A stretch of DNA of 64,000 bases from Treponema sp. Marseille-Q3903. GTDB lineage: Bacteria; Spirochaetota; Spirochaetia; Treponematales; Treponemataceae. This document shows, in pieces, positions 18,000 through 59,937 of the stretch. The notes below the pieces were generated by a model. The model worked only from the letters and a program-made list of their open reading frames with translations. It searched no databases and was not told where the DNA came from. The stretch covers positions 806,001-870,000 of the forward strand of contig NZ_JACSEU010000001.1 of NCBI RefSeq assembly GCF_014334335.1, in the 5' to 3' direction. Numbering within the stretch: position 1 is the first letter of the stretch; every line of letters starts with the position of its first letter. The translations under genes and the position numbers were made by a program.

Positions 18000-19853
18000 A
18001 TGAGCATTCGGATATTAAAAAAAGCATTGGGGCTGCTTGTTGCCGATATCGTTATAATAATCGGCATTTTCGTCCTGCAATTTAGAACAGATTCAAGCAT
18101 TATCAAAAAATCGGGAAATCTCCAGATAACACTTTTTCAATCTGAAAGCAATGCAGATGAAGTTGTCTATCGCAATAAACTTAGAATTACATACAACGGT
18201 CTAAATTTCTCTTTCGACGACCAAAATCCGGCAGTTGTTACGAAAAACGGTAATATTGTACCTGTAAAACTTGAAGACTGCAATCAGATAGACAACCTTT
18301 CCTATATGTTAAAATTTTCGGAAGACGTAAAAGTTACATTTGCTCTTGCGTCTGATTCTTCGGATGCCTCTTTGTCGATTGTTTCGGAGCTTCCTGACGG
18401 AGTTTCCGCCTTTTCAATCCCGTTTAATTATTCGACTAACGTAAAAGTCAAAAAGAACGAAGGAAACAGAATAGTTTTAGAGGGAAAAAAGAACTCGTGG
18501 AGGCTTTCTGCATCTTCTCTCGATTCTGGAAAGTTCACTTTGAACAAAGCTGACCATATTGCGACGTATTCTATCTACGATGAAACAAAACGCTTTTCAT
18601 TTGACACGATTGCAGAGCTCGCGATTGCAGATGAAAGTGTGTTCCATAAAAATCTGGCAACTTTCCGCGATATTTTGATTTCTTCTTACGAATCAAGCGC
18701 TTCCGAATTCAATGTCACTGAGCAGATTGCGGTTTCGTATGTGGCAGCAAAAGCTGATGTCGGCGCATATTCCGACGCACTTGAAAAAGTTCCGTCGTCT
18801 CTTAAAAAGAGCAGCCAGCGGACATATTTTTCATCTCCTTATTTTGACACTCTTGAAGCGATGAATCAAAACCTTGAAAAGGTTGTCAGAGAATTCGACA
18901 AAAAGATAGTTGAAGCTTCCGTGAGCAAATCTCTCGACATCTTTACTGCTACAAATATTTCGGATTTCTTTATTATAAGCAACAACACTGCAGGCATAAA
19001 AAGTATTCTTCAAAGCGCAGCTCAGTCTGATATTTCAAAAGCAACAATTGCGCAAGTTTCAGGAATCTTGCGAGTTTATTGTAAGTTGACATCATTTAAT
19101 TCCGGCTATGCAAAACATCTTGAGCCGATCCTTGAAAGCTGCATCTCAAAAATCACATCTGCATGCAAGTTTGAAGGAAATGTTCTTACAATTTCAGAAA
19201 ACGATACGTTCCTTTCTGTAATTCAGGCTATTGAAACCGGTATAGACGTTATTAAGTACGGCAAGCTTACAGATAATGAGAAACTCCAAAAGACCGGGTA
19301 TGTGATTGTAAACTCTTACCTTGCAGAAAGTTCTTCGTTTGATTTAAGGACGCTCTGCAACTTATATCCTGTCGTCGCTTATGAAAACGCATATTATCCT
19401 CATTTTGAAAAGCTCAACGTTGATGAAAACGGAAATCTTGCATGGGCATGGACTTGTGCTAAGAGCATTGAATATAAGAGAACTTCTGATGGCTCAATAG
19501 CACTCGATGTGGATTTTCCGTCAGGCGATACTCATTACATTATAGTAAAAGGAATCCCTCAGTTTTCTTCAATTTATATTTACAACATGGCGTTCCGCAC
19601 AGACCCTAGATTTGAAACTTATAATTCTTCCGGTTATGTTTACAAAGCTGCTTCCCAAACTCTATTGCTCAAGTCAAGGCACAAGTCAAAAATTGAAAGC
19701 ATTGTGCTAGAATATAGAGCAACAAAGGAAGTTGAACAGGAAGGACCGGCAGATGTCCAAAATGAAAATGGTGTGGCAGAATCAGAAGATGGAAATGGCG
19801 GAAATGGAACAGACGGAACTTCGGATGCAACAGGCGGGGAAGTTTCTTTTTAG
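18000..19853 (+). CDS. Membrane-anchored periplasmic protein, function unknown
   Basis: A 617-residue protein with one N-terminal membrane segment (ALGLLVADIVIIIGIFVLQF, residues 9-28) and no lipobox or cleavage site, so it is expected to be anchored in the inner membrane with its bulk in the periplasm. The middle is mixed alpha/beta; the last 45 residues are low-complexity Gly/Asn/Asp/Glu-rich sequence (DGNGGNGTDGTSDATGG). I do not recognise a family and call it a conserved-type treponemal hypothetical. It diverges from the TPR-lipoprotein gene. There is no SD before the ATG, which sits 9 nt after a -10-like box. A structured leader and ilvB follow. Confidence 0.75.
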   Translation: MSIRILKKALGLLVADIVIIIGIFVLQFRTDSSIIKKSGNLQITLFQSESNADEVVYRNKLRITYNGLNFSFDDQNPAVVTKNGNIVPVKLEDCNQIDNLSYMLKFSEDVKVTFALASDSSDASLSIVSELPDGVSAFSIPFNYSTNVKVKKNEGNRIVLEGKKNSWRLSASSLDSGKFTLNKADHIATYSIYDETKRFSFDTIAELAIADESVFHKNLATFRDILISSYESSASEFNVTEQIAVSYVAAKADVGAYSDALEKVPSSLKKSSQRTYFSSPYFDTLEAMNQNLEKVVREFDKKIVEASVSKSLDIFTATNISDFFIISNNTAGIKSILQSAAQSDISKATIAQVSGILRVYCKLTSFNSGYAKHLEPILESCISKITSACKFEGNVLTISENDTFLSVIQAIETGIDVIKYGKLTDNEKLQKTGYVIVNSYLAESSSFDLRTLCNLYPVVAYENAYYPHFEKLNVDENGNLAWAWTCAKSIEYKRTSDGSIALDVDFPSGDTHYIIVKGIPQFSSIYIYNMAFRTDPRFETYNSSGYVYKAASQTLLLKSRHKSKIESIVLEYRATKEVEQEGPADVQNENGVAESEDGNGGNGTDGTSDATGGEVSF

Positions 19854-19856
19854 GGC

Positions 19857-20077
19857 AGGAGGTGTGATAAAAAGTGTCGTCTGAAATATCGCCGATACTT
19901 TTTATTTCGAGTTTGCCTGGATGTTTGCAGAAGACGTGTATACGTGCCGTTTCGATAAAAATCAAATGAATACGATACGCTTTATTTTGCAAACTCGACT
20001 ATTGAACGTGTGCGCTCTTGCGCACGGCTAAAAACTTTTTCGGAAATTGCTATTTCCTGCAAAAGTTTTTATGGGAG
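19857..20077 (+). ncRNA. Structured leader module before ilvB (four stems)
   Basis: Starting at AGGAGG: stem 1 (19867-19879 with 19893-19905, 13 bp with one G-U), stem 2 (19907-19916 with 19989-19998, 10 bp), stem 3 (20010-20015 with 20020-20025, TCTT loop), and stem 4 (20029-20039 with 20061-20071, 11 bp). Stem 4 has an internal bulge, an inner stem 20042-20047/20052-20057 and loop TGCT. Stem 4 abuts the ilvB SD (GGGAG). Order, spacing and stem-4 details match the tandem units before rsgA, while the paired bases differ compensatorily. Two Treponema RNA motifs, TD-1 and TD-2, have been published; whether this is one of them needs an Rfam scan. It is probably a cis-regulatory RNA. Confidence 0.6.
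19874..19969 (+). CDS. Possible 31-codon leader ORF inside the ilvB leader module
   Basis: GTG start 11 nt after AGGAGG, with the start codon buried in the left arm of stem 1. It encodes a 31-residue peptide (begins MSSEISPILFISSLPGC). Position, SD and beginning correspond to the short ORFs in the rsgA leader units. It is not enriched in Leu/Ile/Val codons in a way that would indicate classical branched-chain attenuation. It could be chance. Confidence 0.3.
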   Translation: MSSEISPILFISSLPGCLQKTCIRAVSIKIK

Positions 20078-20085
20078 TATAGAAA

Positions 20086-21804
20086 ATGAAATTCACCGGC
20101 GCACAGATTATTGTAAAAATGCTAGAAATGTACGGTATAAAGACAGTTGCGGGAATTCCCGGTGGGATGATTCTTCCGCTTTATGATGAATTAAGCCGCT
20201 CTTCAATTAGACACGTGCTTGTGCGTCAGGAACAGGCGGCCGGTTTTATTGCTCAGGGAATTGCGCGAACTACAGGTAAGCCTGCTGTATGCCTTGCTAC
20301 GAGCGGTCCGGGAGCTATGAACCTTTTAACTTCAATCGCCGACGCACGAGCAGACTCTGTCCCGATAATAGCAATCACAGGGCAGGTAAACACAACTCAG
20401 ATAGGAACCGATGCCTTTCAGGAAGCCGATACATTCGGGCTTTCGTTTCCGATTACAAAACACTCGATGATGGTAAAATCGCCTGAAGAACTCCTTGAAG
20501 CTGTTCCTAAAGCTTTCGAAATTGCCGTAAGCGGACGTCCCGGCCCTGTTTTGATAGATGTTCCGCGCAATGTTCAGACTGCGTTGTGCGAATTTGAAAA
20601 ATGGCCGGAAATTAAAAACAAAAAATCCGATAATATTCGGTTTAAAACTCCTGCCTTTCAATATTCAGTAAAAATAGAAAAAATAGTTGAACTGCTTGCG
20701 AACGCCAAATGCCCGGTTTTGTTTTGCGGCGGTGGCTGTAACTCGGAAGAAGCTTCAGTTGAAATTAAAAACTTTTTACAAATTTACAAGCTTCCTGTAA
20801 TTACAAGTTTGATGGGAATAGGTTGTATTCCGAGCAATTCTGATTTGTATGCAGGGATGGTTGGTATGCACGGAAACCACGCTGCAAACGTCGCTATGCA
20901 CGACAGCGACCTTATTGTTGCAGCGGGAGTTCGGTTTGACGATAGAGCGACAGGCGATGTGAACAAACTGTGCCCGAATGCTAAAGTCGTTCACATAGAT
21001 ATAGACGCAGCCGAAGTAGATAAAATAGTTGATTCGTATATTTCAGTGATTGCAGATGTCGCTGTCGTTTTTTCAGATATCGTAAAAATCGCTGCCGCAA
21101 AAAGCATAAAAGCCGATGAAAAGTGGCTAAACAAAATCAAAAAAATCAAGGCTGAAAATACGAGCATAGAATGCGGACGCCCTAAAGGTGAAAAACTTTC
21201 AAATCCTCGCGAAATCATATCAAAAACTCCGGAATTGGCAGGCGAGTGCGGACTCAACTATTCAGATTTGATAATAACTACAGACGTCGGTCAGCATCAG
21301 ATGTGGGTTGCCCAGTATTATCCTTTTGAATCCCCTCGTACTTTTTTGACGTCAGGTTCGCTTGGCACTATGGGTTTTGGACTTCCGGCGGCTATTGGTG
21401 CTGCAATCGGTTGCCCAGATAAGCGGATTGTGTGTTACAGCGGCGACGGCTCAATTTTGATGAATATTCAGGAACTTGCGACGTTGGCGGAGCAGAATCT
21501 GCCGGTTACTGTAATTGTGTTTCAAAACGGGACGCTCGGCATGGTTTATCAACAGCAAAAATATCTTTTTGCAAAAAACTACAGCGCTTCTGTTTTTGCT
21601 CATCAGCCGGACTTTGTTGAAATTGCACGTGGATTTGGCATTGAAGCTGTAGACGCAGATTGTGACCCTCAGTGGTACAAAAAGGCGTTTGATACAAACC
21701 GAAAAAATAAACCGTGCTTTGTAAAAGTCAGCGTAGACCCTGAAGAGCTTGTTTTGCCGTTTGTTTCTGGCGGAAAGGCTAATATAGATTCAATCAGGAA
21801 TTAG
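20086..21804 (+). CDS. ilvB: Acetolactate synthase large (catalytic) subunit
   Basis: A ThDP-dependent enzyme condensing pyruvate with pyruvate or 2-ketobutyrate, the first common step of branched-chain amino acid synthesis; 572 residues. The N-terminal PYR domain has the catalytic glutamate in VRQEQAAGFIAQG. The central domain carries FAD-type features, and the C-terminal PP domain has GSLGTMGFGLPAAIG and the ThDP motif CYSGDGSILMNIQELATL. The ATG follows GGGAG by 8 nt. No regulatory subunit (ilvN) or other ilv/leu gene is nearby, so it is either an orphan catalytic subunit or its partners are elsewhere. It is preceded by a structured leader. Its last 11 nt overlap the convergent rarA gene. 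Confidence 0.92.
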   Translation: MKFTGAQIIVKMLEMYGIKTVAGIPGGMILPLYDELSRSSIRHVLVRQEQAAGFIAQGIARTTGKPAVCLATSGPGAMNLLTSIADARADSVPIIAITGQVNTTQIGTDAFQEADTFGLSFPITKHSMMVKSPEELLEAVPKAFEIAVSGRPGPVLIDVPRNVQTALCEFEKWPEIKNKKSDNIRFKTPAFQYSVKIEKIVELLANAKCPVLFCGGGCNSEEASVEIKNFLQIYKLPVITSLMGIGCIPSNSDLYAGMVGMHGNHAANVAMHDSDLIVAAGVRFDDRATGDVNKLCPNAKVVHIDIDAAEVDKIVDSYISVIADVAVVFSDIVKIAAAKSIKADEKWLNKIKKIKAENTSIECGRPKGEKLSNPREIISKTPELAGECGLNYSDLIITTDVGQHQMWVAQYYPFESPRTFLTSGSLGTMGFGLPAAIGAAIGCPDKRIVCYSGDGSILMNIQELATLAEQNLPVTVIVFQNGTLGMVYQQQKYLFAKNYSASVFAHQPDFVEIARGFGIEAVDADCDPQWYKKAFDTNRKNKPCFVKVSVDPEELVLPFVSGGKANIDSIRN

Positions 21805-33581: not shown

Positions 33582-36500
33582 ATGATTATCGCAATTGCAG
33601 TTCTCGTTTCTGTTGTTATTTCATTGGGAATTTCTATTTATTTTCATGGACTTAATAAAGACAATAACTCAATGGAAAAAGTAAAAAAATATGCGGACAA
33701 ACGTCAAGAAGACCTTTTAAATATTTACAAAGAGATTCACACAAAGTTCAACGTCATAATCACAGATTTCAATGCGCAGCAAACTCAAGCAAATGCGGCT
33801 GTGAAAGTGATGAAGCAACAGAACGAAGAGTTTTCAACAAAGTTGAATTCTTTTGGACAAAGCATAACAGCTGTCAACAATATTCAAAATCAGATAAATA
33901 AATACGCAAAAGTTCTCGAAGATTTGAACCAGATGACAGAGTCAGTTGAGGAAAATCTAGCCAGAATCCACAAGGAAAGCGGAATAATAGATGATTTGAA
34001 TTCAAAACTGAACAAGCAGCTTACAAAAGTTGAGCAGATAGACAAGCGTATTCCTGAAGTGACAAAAAACTTTTCCGAACAGAATGCAGAGCAGCTCAAA
34101 GCCATTGGAACTACGCTTCTTTCTCAGTACGAAAATTATGCAGAAAAAATCTCAGAAGATATCAAGGCGTCGCAAGCTTATGCAGAAAAAGCTCTCGCAG
34201 ATATAAAACAAAATATTCAGTCTTCATTTACAAAAGCCGCCGCTGAGGCAGATAAACTTGAAAATACTGCATTTGAACATCTGAGTGAACTGGCGCATGA
34301 GCGTTTTGAGCAATACAAAGGAGAACTTAAAACAAATATCGATTCACTTTATCAAGAGTTGAACAGTCAAGTTGAATTGATTACAAAATCAATTGCCGAC
34401 AACACAGACAGTTCTGCAAGGAGCATATCTGAAAAATTCGATGCTGTTTCCGAAACTCTTGAAGCACGAGCTGCCGAGCTGGACAATTCTCTAAAAACAA
34501 AAATTGCAGAAACTACGGCGTCTTACAACGATTCTGAAAATAAAGTCATTGCAACCGCAAAAGAAAATCTTTATAAACTCAACGAAAAATTCAATGAGAA
34601 AATCAGGACTGTGACCGGCTCTTTTGCAGAAAAAGTTGACAGTTTGAGCCAAAAATACAATCAGCAACTTGAAGCAATCAGCGGCAAAAATGACGGTATA
34701 ATTGCAAGAATTGCAGCGCGTTTTGATGACGACAATGTAAAAATTGAACAAAAGTATGCAGACCAAATAGAAAACATCAAGAAGAAAAATGATGCAAATT
34801 ACGCTTTAATCGCTAAGAAATTTGAAGATGACTTCGGCGCTTTTTCTGAAAAATACAATCAGGCTTTTGAAAACGCAACGATTACGAATACGAAAAAAAT
34901 CAATGAATTTAATGAAAACTTCGTAGAAGAGCACAAAAATCTTTTGCAAAAATATACAGATACGTTGAATGAATTCCAGAGCAGCAGTGACAGGCAGCTT
35001 TCAGAATTGCAGGCAAATCAAAATCAGCAGATTTCAGAATTGAAAGAATACAGAGAACGCTCTGCAAATCTCCAGACTGATATTCAGACAATGCAGGAAA
35101 ATCTTGAAGAAGCTCTCCGCCGGATTTCGGAAGAAGCAAATAAGTCTGTTGAAGACGCACAGAATTCAGTTCGCACGATTCAAGAACAGTGTGATGAAGC
35201 TGAACAAAAGGCAAATTCATTAAAACCGGAGCTTGAACAAAAAATCAGCGAAGTCAACGAAAGCCTTGCAGTCATTCAAAATGAGACGACTCAGAAAATT
35301 GAAAGTATTCAGGCTTTGTCAGAGCGGCAGATAAGAGCGATTATCGACGATGTAAAACAAAAAATTGAAAGCATCGAAGAATCTTCCGGTAAAAATATCA
35401 ATGCAATCCAGAGCTTTGTCAACCAAAAAATTGTGAGCCTTGAAGAAGATTCCGAACAGAAAATAAAAGAAATAGAAGAAGCTGTCAATCAAAAAATTTC
35501 GACAATTGAAGAGACTTCAGGGCAGCAGGTCAAGTCGATTGGAGATGCTGTAAATCAAAAAATTGAAAACCTTGAACAATATTCAGGGCAAAAAATTAAA
35601 ACAATTGAAGACGCTGTAAATCAAAAAATTTCGACAATTGAAGAATCTTCGGGGCAGCATGTCAAGTCGATAGAAGATGCTGTCAGCAGAAGAATTGAAA
35701 ACCTTGAAGAATCTTCCGAGCAGCAGATTAAATCAATCGAGGAGGCTGTCAGCAGGAGAATTGAAAATCTCGAAACGGCATCCGGCAAAAATATCGATAC
35801 GATTCAAGTTGAAACAAAGCACAAAATTGAAGCGCTCCAATCGGCAGCCGCTGGGCAAATTGAATCGATTCAAAACGAGGCAAAACATCAGATTGATTCG
35901 CTAAAATCGGACTCAAAAGTGCAGATTGAAACTTTTAAAAACGAAACCGATGTCCAGCTTTCTAACCTTTCAAAAATCATCACTGATTCTGTCCGCAAAG
36001 CAGTAAGCGAGAGCGAAGTAAAGCACCTTCATATTCTTGAGGAAGTTGATGCCGAGCTCCTGTCTTACAAAAAAGATATAGATTACAAACTTTCTCAAAT
36101 CCAGCTTTCCGAAACTGATATCGACGCTCTCGAAAAAAGCCTAAAAGTTGCGATGTCGGAAGTTCAAAACAGGGTTTTGCACGATTTTGACATATTTACA
36201 TCTGCTCAAAAACAAAAACACGATGAGTTCAGCAAAAAAATCAAAGATGATTCGGACGCTGTTGAAACAAAGATAAACGAAATCAATGATTCTCTCGACG
36301 ACCTCAAGAACACAGCGACAGGCAGCATGAGCGCAAAACTCCAGGAATTTGAATCTATATTCAATCAGACACTTTCTACAAAGAACAACGAAATCGATTC
36401 GGACATTGCAGAATGGAAGCACGACCTTGACTCAAAGCTTACGACGCTGACAAACAAATACGAAGATTCACGCCGAGAAGTTGAATCAAAATATCTTGAA

Positions 36501-58383: not shown

Positions 58384-58423
58384 AATGTAGGCAGAAAACA
58401 GAGGATATAAAAGGGATAAAACT

Positions 58424-58486
58424 TTGACGGAGATGGTGTCAAAGTTTTATCTGCAAGTTTGCACTATGTTTATTCTGCAAACTTGA
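58424..58486 (+). CDS. Possible 20-codon leader ORF, unit 1
   Basis: TTG start 8 nt after AAGGG inside stem 1, encoding a 20-residue peptide beginning MTEMVSKFYLQVC and ending at a TGA in stem 2. It lacks the 22-bp segment that keeps the frame open in units 2 and 3. Expression is unproven. Confidence 0.25.
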   Translation: MTEMVSKFYLQVCTMFILQT

Positions 58487-58584
58487 TTATAGAGAGCATA
58501 TTCTCATTTCATTGCGAATATGCGTAAAAAGTCAAGTCGAAAATTGATATTTTCTCGTTGACTTTTTATAGAGGGGATAAAACT

Positions 58585-58710
58585 TTGACAGAGATGGTGT
58601 CAAAGTTTTATCTTCAAGTTTGCACTAAGCTTGTACTAAGTTTGCACTATGTTTATTCTGCAAACTTGATTATAGAGAGCATATTCTCATTTCATTGCGA
58701 ATATGCGTAA
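58585..58710 (+). CDS. Possible 41-codon leader ORF, unit 2
   Basis: TTG start 8 nt after GAGGGG, reading MTEMVSKFYLQVCTKLVLSL onward through stems 2 and 3 and stopping at the TAA that opens stem 4. The peptide is hydrophobic in its middle. It differs from the unit 3 peptide at only two residues (His21/Ser, Tyr24/Cys). Confidence 0.3.
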   Translation: MTEMVSKFYLQVCTKLVLSLHYVYSANLIIESIFSFHCEYA

Positions 58711-58767
58711 AAAGTCAAGTCGAAAATTGATATTTTCTCGTTGACTTTTTATAGGAGTGATAAAACT

Positions 58768-58893
58768 TTGACAGAGATGGTGTCAAAGTTTTATCTGCAA
58801 GTTTGCACTAAGCTTGTACTAAGTTTGAGCTATGTTTGTTCTGCAAACTTGATTATAGAGAGCATATTCTCATTTCATTGCGAATATGCGTAA
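58768..58893 (+). CDS. Possible 41-codon leader ORF, unit 3
   Basis: TTG start after AGGAG (10 nt), same length and frame as the unit 2 ORF and also ending at the first bases of stem 4. Either a translated leader peptide, or a by-product of duplicating the rsgA translation start. Confidence 0.3.
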   Translation: MTEMVSKFYLQVCTKLVLSLSYVCSANLIIESIFSFHCEYA

Positions 58894-58950
58894 AAAGTCA
58901 AGTCGAAAATTGATATTTTCTCGTTGACTTTTTATAGAGGGGATAAAACT

Positions 58951-59937
58951 TTGACAGGTACAGTTATTGCCGGTACAAATAACCTTTTTACAGTTGAATG
59001 CGAAGATGATGTTATAAGAAATTGCACTATAAAAGGTAAGGTTATAAAAACAGACAAGACGTTTTACAATCCTATAGCACCAGGCGATGTTGTTGAAATT
59101 GCAATCGATGAACTTGACGATGCCAAAGGTCAGGTAACTCTCATCCATCCTAGAAAAAATACATTTCTTCGTTATAATGTAAAAGGAAATTGTCCTCAGC
59201 TTATCGCAAGCAATCTCGATTATCTGATTTTAGTTACCACCCCTGAGGAGCCTCCGTTTCGTCCTCGTTTTATCGATCGTGCACTCGCGCAGGCTGAGCA
59301 TCAGGGAATTACACCGGTTATTGTCTGCAACAAATGGGACTTAGCTCAACAGATGCAGGCAGACGGCAGAGCTGAAGATTTTGAAATGATAGAACGCCGG
59401 CTGAATATTTGGGAAGATTTGGGCTATAAAGTGTTGCGGCTTTCTGCCAGAACAGGTGAGGGAATGACAGAGTTTGCTGAAATTCTTGAAGATAAACTTT
59501 CCGCTTTTGTTGGGCAGTCTGGTGTTGGAAAATCAAGTTTAATAAATGTGATGGATAACAATTGCGTTTTGCGCACAGGAAGCCTCTCTAAAAAATACGG
59601 ACGAGGTAGTCACACTACTACAAAAGGAACTTTAGTCCACCTTAATTTAAACGAGTCTCTCACCGAAGGCGTTCGAGGAAGAAAAGCAAATATCATAGAC
59701 ACACCGGGAATCAGGCGTTTTGTTTTAGACGACATAAAAGCTGATGAACTTGCGCTTTATTTTCGAGAATTCGATCAATTTCTTGGAAAATGCAAATTCG
59801 GAGCAAACTGCAAGCACATTTCGGAGCCGGAATGCGCTGTCCTCAAAGCACTCGAAAACGGCTATATCACACAAGAGCGTTTTGATAGCTGGATGCGAAT
59901 CTGTGAAGAGATAAGGACAGGTTCGTGGTCGGATTGA
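58951..59937 (+). CDS. rsgA: Ribosome small-subunit-dependent GTPase RsgA
   Basis: A 328-residue circularly permuted GTPase acting late in 30S maturation. The N-terminal OB fold (GTVIAGTNNLFTVE) precedes the permuted G domain: G4 VCNKWDL, G5 LSARTGEG, G1 GQSGVGKSSLIN, G3 DTPGIRRF. The zinc domain CKFGANCKHISEPECAV ends the protein. I start at TTG 58951, 8 nt after GAGGGG; a TTG at 58924 would put the SD inside the gene and add a non-conserved stretch. The first bases of the gene are the fourth copy of the repeated left arm, so the start could pair with upstream right arms. Confidence 0.93.
   Translation: MTGTVIAGTNNLFTVECEDDVIRNCTIKGKVIKTDKTFYNPIAPGDVVEIAIDELDDAKGQVTLIHPRKNTFLRYNVKGNCPQLIASNLDYLILVTTPEEPPFRPRFIDRALAQAEHQGITPVIVCNKWDLAQQMQADGRAEDFEMIERRLNIWEDLGYKVLRLSARTGEGMTEFAEILEDKLSAFVGQSGVGKSSLINVMDNNCVLRTGSLSKKYGRGSHTTTKGTLVHLNLNESLTEGVRGRKANIIDTPGIRRFVLDDIKADELALYFREFDQFLGKCKFGANCKHISEPECAVLKALENGYITQERFDSWMRICEEIRTGSWSD

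Follow-up and report, generated by a model that had tools for sequence, protein, structure and literature searches.

A TD-1-like leader of ilvB in Treponema is probably a small mobile element inserted at a Shine-Dalgarno sequence

The leaders of ilvB and rsgA

The window analysed here, a 64,000-nucleotide stretch of the genome of Treponema sp. Marseille-Q3903, contains the acetolactate synthase gene ilvB and the GTPase gene rsgA, each preceded by a structured leader on the same strand. Coordinates are those of the window; G and L numbers denote genomes and loci, respectively, with G000 standing for the present genome, and SD denotes a Shine-Dalgarno sequence. The features are as follows.

19857–19861, plus strand: left SD, AGGAG, found at the left junction in 11/11 copies; its assignment to the host side is a prediction
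19860–19861, plus strand: predicted core AG
19860–20077, plus strand: ilvB copy of the class-A TD-1 element (about 218 nt, with AGGTGTGATAAAAAG at its left end and GTTTTTATGGGAG at its right end), recognised by 97–100% identity to 10 other full-length copies
19866–19906, plus strand: hairpin of stem 1, with GATAAAAAGTGTCG / CGATACTTTTTAT as its outer arms, from the fold; a hairpin is predicted here in 15/15 elements
19908–19997, plus strand: stem 2, CGAGTTTGC / GCAAACTCG, with extra sequence enclosed, from the sequence; paired in the consensus fold of 14 other elements
19964–20076, plus strand: TD-1 match, 44.7 bits
20007–20027, plus strand: stem 3, GC-rich hairpin GTGCGC TCTT GCGCAC with its neighbours, from the fold and an element-by-element check
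20029–20071, plus strand: stem 4 with the inner hairpin GGAAAT TGCT ATTTCC, from the fold and the pairing across 15 elements
20073–20077, plus strand: right SD, GGGAG, element-borne, 8 nt 5′ of the ilvB ATG
20086–21804, plus strand: ilvB, acetolactate synthase large subunit, ATG at 20086, NCBIfam TIGR00118 above cut-off
58406–58957, plus strand: three class-A TD-1 elements in tandem before rsgA, with a cut left end last
58936–58953, plus strand: SD of element origin (AGAGGGG) followed by the probable rsgA start TTG at 58951–58953, from sequence and frame, the start being inferred
58951–59937, plus strand: rsgA, ribosome small subunit-dependent GTPase, NCBIfam TIGR00157 above cut-off (from 58954)

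The segment 19857–20077 is composed, in order, of AGGAG, stem 1, stem 2 (GAGTTTGC ... GCAAACTC), the GC-rich stem 3, stem 4 (AAAAACTTTT/AAAAGTTTTT, inner arms GGAAAT/ATTTCC, loop TGCT) and GGGAG. Its minimum free energy of −73.9 kcal/mol compares with −54.3 on average for shuffled sequences (z −4.5) and was equalled in 0 of 200 shuffles. In the single-sequence minimum-energy fold of the ilvB copy, the two arms of stem 2 find other partners, and stem 2 at ilvB encloses about 70 nt which most other elements do not have. The three units of the rsgA leader are spaced by 161 and 183 nt, with a period of 183, and a single unit folds with a z of −6.1; the cut left end of an element which closes this array contains both the SD and the probable rsgA start (58936–58953). 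Elsewhere in the window, at 35351–35812, six copies of a repeat with 66-nt spacing lie within a 1530-aa ORF.

Conservation of the fold and relation to TD-1

A sequence-only reading of this DNA had proposed a four-stem architecture common to the ilvB leader and the repeats before rsgA, and the comparison bears this out, with the elements in the claimed order at both loci and a covarying stem 4. Across 15 elements, 237 of the 240 cells of stem 4 and its inner hairpin are paired, with both-side changes at 11 of the 16 positions; when the 3′ arms are shuffled among the elements the mean falls to 187.4 paired cells and none of 1000 shuffles matches the observed value, a score that is not a strict probability because the 15 elements are related. 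RNAalifold applied to 14 elements, ilvB excluded, recovered stems 2 and 3 and the inner hairpin, with both-side changes in 14 of 19 pairs. Stem 1 and the outer part of stem 4, whose register shifts in the alignment, did not emerge from it and were checked element by element.

An Rfam scan of the window gave no family at or above its gathering score. At a lax threshold, the suspected relation to TD-1 (RF03155) becomes apparent at both loci, with 44.7 bits (E 3.2e-6) at ilvB and 56.4–59.7 bits (E 4.3e-9) at the rsgA units, all below the gathering score of 64.5; the alignments span the full-length model (1–120) and the stem 2-3-4 architecture of TD-1 is present in both leaders. The elements thus share with TD-1, which is grouped with TD-2 (RF03162) in clan CL00124, stems 2–4 and the inner hairpin with a TGAT-type loop, but remain below the gathering score and add stem 1 and two SDs. 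In the whole genome (2.51 Mb, four contigs), at least 22 TD-1 matches at E ≤ 1 were found among the best 150 of 335 candidates scored, four of them above the gathering score, and homologues occur elsewhere in the genus, with a TD-1 match at E ≤ 0.001 under strict filters in 55 of 146 genomes, so that the lack of homologues in relatives that would have refuted the earlier reading is not seen. TD-1 is said to have originated with Weinberg in 2010. The main text of Weinberg 2010 (PMC2864571) makes no mention of it. On the minus strand, TD-2 scores 30–43 bits in the 5′ portions of the rsgA units (58411–58518, 58572–58666 and 58755–58849); since these matches lie on the opposite strand, TD-1 and TD-2 may be one repeat family viewed from two strands.

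Eleven copies of the ilvB element

When the ilvB leader was used as a DNA query against its own genome, 22 matches were obtained (40 of 48 candidates scored), which comprise 11 full-length copies with 97–100% identity and 11 short opposite-strand matches to stem 4 of those same copies. In all 11 full-length copies the repeated unit spans positions 8–228 of the query 19850–20090, so that the segment delimited in the earlier reading coincides almost exactly with the unit. Every copy is flanked by AGGAG on the left and GGAG on the right with an ORF start shortly 3′, following the layout ...AGGAG, (G/A)T(G/A)TGATAAAAAG..., GTTTTTAT(G/A)GGAG, start codon; the right SD is GGGAG in nine copies and AGGAG in two, and the distance from GGAG to ATG is 5–10 nt, counted at L043 from the second in-frame ATG (from the first it would be 2). 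The genes that follow are ilvB and those for an Obg GTPase, a nitroreductase, a MurD-like ligase, an HTH-cupin protein, a cupin, a malic enzyme, a dCMP deaminase, an amino-acid-kinase family protein, an alpha/beta hydrolase and an NMT1-like protein. That the two downstream genes are functionally unrelated, as noted in the earlier reading, is explained by the ilvB unit being a dispersed element that precedes 11 unrelated genes. No match to the element was found in the plasmid and phage collections.

The predicted openness of the SD averages 0.61 when the element is present, against 0.37 after shuffling of its interior and 0.51 for the joined empty site. Two of the 11 loci (L038 and L043) show no gain, and the real value is reached by at most 2 of 25 shuffles in just six of the 11. 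By these predictions, the insert probably folds within itself through its conserved hairpins and thereby leaves the new SD open.

Empty sites and the point of insertion

Joined-flank queries were made for nine of the 11 sites and compared with the 146 genus genomes, two candidates being scored per genome. Of the 34 orthologous loci that were aligned, which represent six of the 11 sites, 32 are without the element in the upstream stretch, although many of these loci were picked for a match spanning the junction, which favours empty sites. The two remaining are L212, the ilvB locus of G135, where a different TD-1-like element occupies the same spot, and L183, which ends at a contig edge. At murD, for example, the empty locus L196 reads AAGGAGTTTTTTATG and the joined flanks AAAGGAGTTTTTATG.

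Filled and empty sites can also be compared among relatives. Two such pairs come from sister genomes, L142 (G119) with L228 (G132) and L125 (G048) with L229 (G108); in the former the stretch where the empty site agrees with both junctions is AGGAGGCG (AGAAGGCG at the left junction), in the latter AGGAGGATT (AGGAGGTTT at the left junction). At L141 the insertion lies within an ORF at GGGAGGT, and the paralogues L231 and L233 are without the element, L233 reading on. These two pairs and the L141 paralogues are the clean cases among 13 comparisons of 10 elements, a clean empty site not being obtained for L115, L138, L150, L145, L139, L146 and L153. In the clean cases the empty site matches both junctions over 8–13 nt, with mismatches. 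At the site of L139 (G119), the G132 locus L244 has stem 1 only, followed by TATGGGAG, and looks like a shortened element.

Both flanks of L043 read GGAGATATGA, which could represent a short target duplication. A long duplication was rejected as a general rule, as 10 of the 11 ilvB-type copies share little past GGAG at their ends; longer shared ends are seen in L043, L142/L228 and L125/L229. A crossover core of AG would fit both the short and the long shared ends, without being proven by them.

Because 11 copies lie at SDs, 32 of the 34 orthologous loci are empty and filled sites have empty counterparts, the element is best described as one that inserts at an SD and restores it. The host SD would be left of the insert while the element's own GGGAG would be placed on the right near the start codon, so that the gene would stay translatable.

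Two classes of elements in related genomes

TD-1 matches together with four DNA matches gave 66 places in relatives, some of them orthologous to one another, which were divided by their right ends into class A (27) and class B (38), the patterns being drawn by eye and post hoc and three of them including SD letters. Class A, to which the ilvB and rsgA elements belong, is situated directly 5′ of an ORF start in 25 cases and before another copy in two, whereas class B, with a right end that is mostly TTTTAAGGA or similar, precedes an ORF start in eight of 38; L111, L119, L128, L131 and L144 are examples of class B. L110 falls outside both patterns and reads like class A. The ends of class-A elements other than the ilvB type vary, and TTGACTTTTTATGGGAG, the right end of the IS110-family transposon described below, occurs also in class-A elements of G080 and G145. 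Three class-A elements, L108, L124 and L156, carry a different 5′ module, ...GCTCGAAAT(C/T)GCAGCGTTCTTAT, in place of stem 1.

Rfam labels TD-1 as 'Cis-reg', while the element described here looks mobile. A riboswitch-like or protein-binding leader RNA that hides or exposes the SD of ilvB, rsgA and other genes would agree with a covarying, conserved structure adjoining the SD, with the strong folds and with the 5′UTR location of class A; such a reading is nevertheless very unlikely, considering the 11 near-identical copies before unrelated genes, their absence from 32 of the 34 aligned orthologous loci, the tandem copies, the insertion within an ORF at L141, the position of class B before an ORF in just eight of 38 cases and the SD that is predicted to be fairly open with the element present. 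A regulon or riboswitch was thus discarded on account of the unrelated genes and the empty sites, and the earlier idea of a leader RNA belonging to ilvB and rsgA gives way to a dispersed unit.

An IS110-family transposon with the same ends

In G119, the SD at which G142 carries the element L145 is occupied by a transposon that encodes a 375-aa IS110-family transposase (hereafter the L242 type) and ends in TATGATAAAAAGG / TTGACTTTTTATGGGAGG. This transposase contains the domains PF01548 (DEDD_Tnp_IS110, 57.1 bits) and PF02371 (Transposase_20, 67.1 bits), both above cut-off. The ilvB-type copies and this IS have the same termini, GATAAAAA on the left and TTTTTATGGGAG on the right, both at SDs, and the ends are the only sequence that they have in common. 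The IS group, which is found at SDs as well and was scanned by end pattern in 39 loci, is represented among named strains by Treponema parvum ATCC 700773 and T. bryantii XBD1002. All 18 distinct left flanks have AGG[CT]A[TA] before GATAAAA, with AGGAGG in 15 and GAGG in three preceding [CT]A[TA], and all 20 distinct right flanks start with GGGAG; an ATG follows 3–7 nt past GGGAG in 17 of the 18 readable right flanks, and L303 has a TTG at 6. No match to the IS was found in the plasmid collection.

PF01548 is present in 44 of the 146 genus genomes. In the present genome there were neither PF01548 matches nor tblastn matches to the L242 transposase; in the 11 genomes searched in this way, the transposase is present in G108 and G119 and as fragments only in G048, G107 and G142, with nothing found in the other six (G000, G132, G127, G087, G137 and G043). 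The mover must therefore have been lost here, reside in the missing 1.3% of this genome, or be something else.

A mover outside the IS110 family, for instance an unrecognised transposase making a short duplication at AGGAG-like targets, would account for a genome without an IS110 gene and for an empty site that matches both junctions over 8–9 nt in two pairs. It is unlikely given that the IS110 group has the same termini and the same site choice, that one SD has been used by both the element and an IS110 transposon, and that the noncoding RNA of the IS contains AUGGGAG, the right end of the element. A hairpin element of the IS200/IS605 or RAYT/REP-like kind, moved by a Y1 HUH transposase, would have terminal hairpins, a tetranucleotide target and no clear long duplication in its favour, but is extremely improbable: PF01797 (Y1_Tnp) has no match in the present genome and, while found in 40 of the 146 genus genomes, is absent from the TD-1-bearing G048, G108, G107, G132, G127, G087 and G137, with a single broken or partial match in either of G119 and G142. 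The Y1 candidates were rejected on this absence here and in the seven TD-1-bearing genomes. We thus consider it probable that the ilvB leader is a non-autonomous class-A TD-1 mobile element at SDs, moved in trans by an IS110-family recombinase.

The inverted ends of L242 and L261–L286 are about 20 nt long when ATAAAAAGGTAAACGAACAAG is compared by eye with ATAAAAAGTCAACGAACAAG. Such ends are reminiscent of IS1111, and the RNA lies upstream as in IS110. G145 has 19 PF01548 matches, and the two copies there whose ends were read, L290 and L291, adjoin attC-like GTTAGGC/GTTATGC and not SDs, which suggests an IS110 that targets integrons. An SD target is thus not general for the IS110 family.

The noncoding RNA and its proposed guides

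The noncoding regions 5′ of the transposase gene (n = 10) are strongly conserved except around one hairpin, and their consensus fold consists of a 5′ hairpin, a closing stem and two inner hairpins, with both-side changes in five of 47 pairs, located in or adjoining the first inner hairpin. Beside this hairpin lie NNNAGGAGAAUG on the 3′ side and CAU-N5-(G/A)U on the 5′ side, and beside the second inner hairpin lies AAUGGGAGAUUGG, which contains ATGGGAG, equal to the right end of the element. In published work (PMC11208160), the left guide is described as pairing with the bottom strand on the left, and the right guide with the top strand on the right; by these rules the first guide pair would specify AGGAG and, some five bases further, a start codon. 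Because the RNAalifold consensus pairs parts of both proposed guides (columns 67–70 with 91–94 and 45–48 with 144–147), the guide assignment is put forward as hypothetical. The order of the guides looks like the IS1111 order described in PMC11187229, with the RNA upstream as in IS110.

The bases before GGAG in the guide-like stretch agree with those of the IS copy's own target at 37 of 42 bases, against a shuffled mean of 25.3 and none of 20000 shuffles reaching that number, in a count that covers 14 of 17 insertions (L261, L267 and L268, with GAGG left flanks, being excluded), for which the stretch was chosen by eye for AGGAG and the triplets were entered by hand, and in which copies from the same genome are not independent. 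In G119, five copies with TTA lie at TTA, TTA, TTA, ATA and CTA, and a sixth with AAA lies at AAA. This agreement supports the hypothetical guide assignment.

Discussion

The bridge-RNA (seekRNA) insertion sequences of the IS110 and IS1111 groups, such as IS621 and ISEc21, likewise combine a Transposase_20 transposase with a structured noncoding RNA upstream of its gene and a sequence-defined target. In contrast to those, the group described here targets the SD and start region, so that each genome offers many sites where insertion is tolerable. Its inverted ends measure about 20 nt, its proposed guide order is IS1111-like, and small elements that share its ends but have no transposase occur alongside it. 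Published work describes IS110 and IS1111 elements as moving without target duplication and through circular intermediates, and cargo placed between IS ends as moving with transposase and RNA supplied in trans (PMC11187229); a 22-bp donor with the bridge RNA in trans is likewise described as enough (PMC11208160).

In the proposed model, the bridge RNA would recognise a translation start region, with a left guide for (A)AGGAG and a right guide, CAU-N5, that is the complement of N5-ATG, while the donor guide with AUGGGAG would match the right end of the element. Recombinase and RNA would pair with the SD and start codon of the target and with both ends of a circular donor, and a crossover at the shared AG would yield host-AGG-AG-element-GGG-AG-host, a product that retains an SD close to the start codon. 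Small elements whose ends fit could be mobilised in trans, like the cargo in the assays of PMC11187229 and PMC11208160. Arrays like the one before rsgA would arise if the SD of a pre-existing copy were itself used as a target; in that array the cut left end now seems to be the source of both the SD and the presumed TTG start; tandem arrays are consistent with a circular intermediate.

Bacterial MITEs and small repeats such as RUP, BOX and REP are likewise short, structured, non-autonomous and multicopy, and are moved in trans. A literature search by titles and abstract openings, in which few subscription papers were covered, gave no report of a mobile TD-1 or of an SD-targeting IS110; the titles and abstract openings listed also showed neither an IS110-derived MITE nor a MITE that targets SDs. 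On balance, it seems plausible that a bridge-RNA transposon aimed at the ribosome-binding site by guides for the SD and against the start codon uses translation starts as safe harbours, and that part of TD-1 represents its small derivatives, whose self-contained fold would keep the rebuilt SD open. If this is true, a catalogued family of 'cis-regulatory RNA' would, at least in part, be a mobile element, the IS group would be the first case of a bridge-RNA transposon aimed at Shine-Dalgarno sequences to come up in these searches, and there would be a route by which transposons may insert before housekeeping genes without silencing them.
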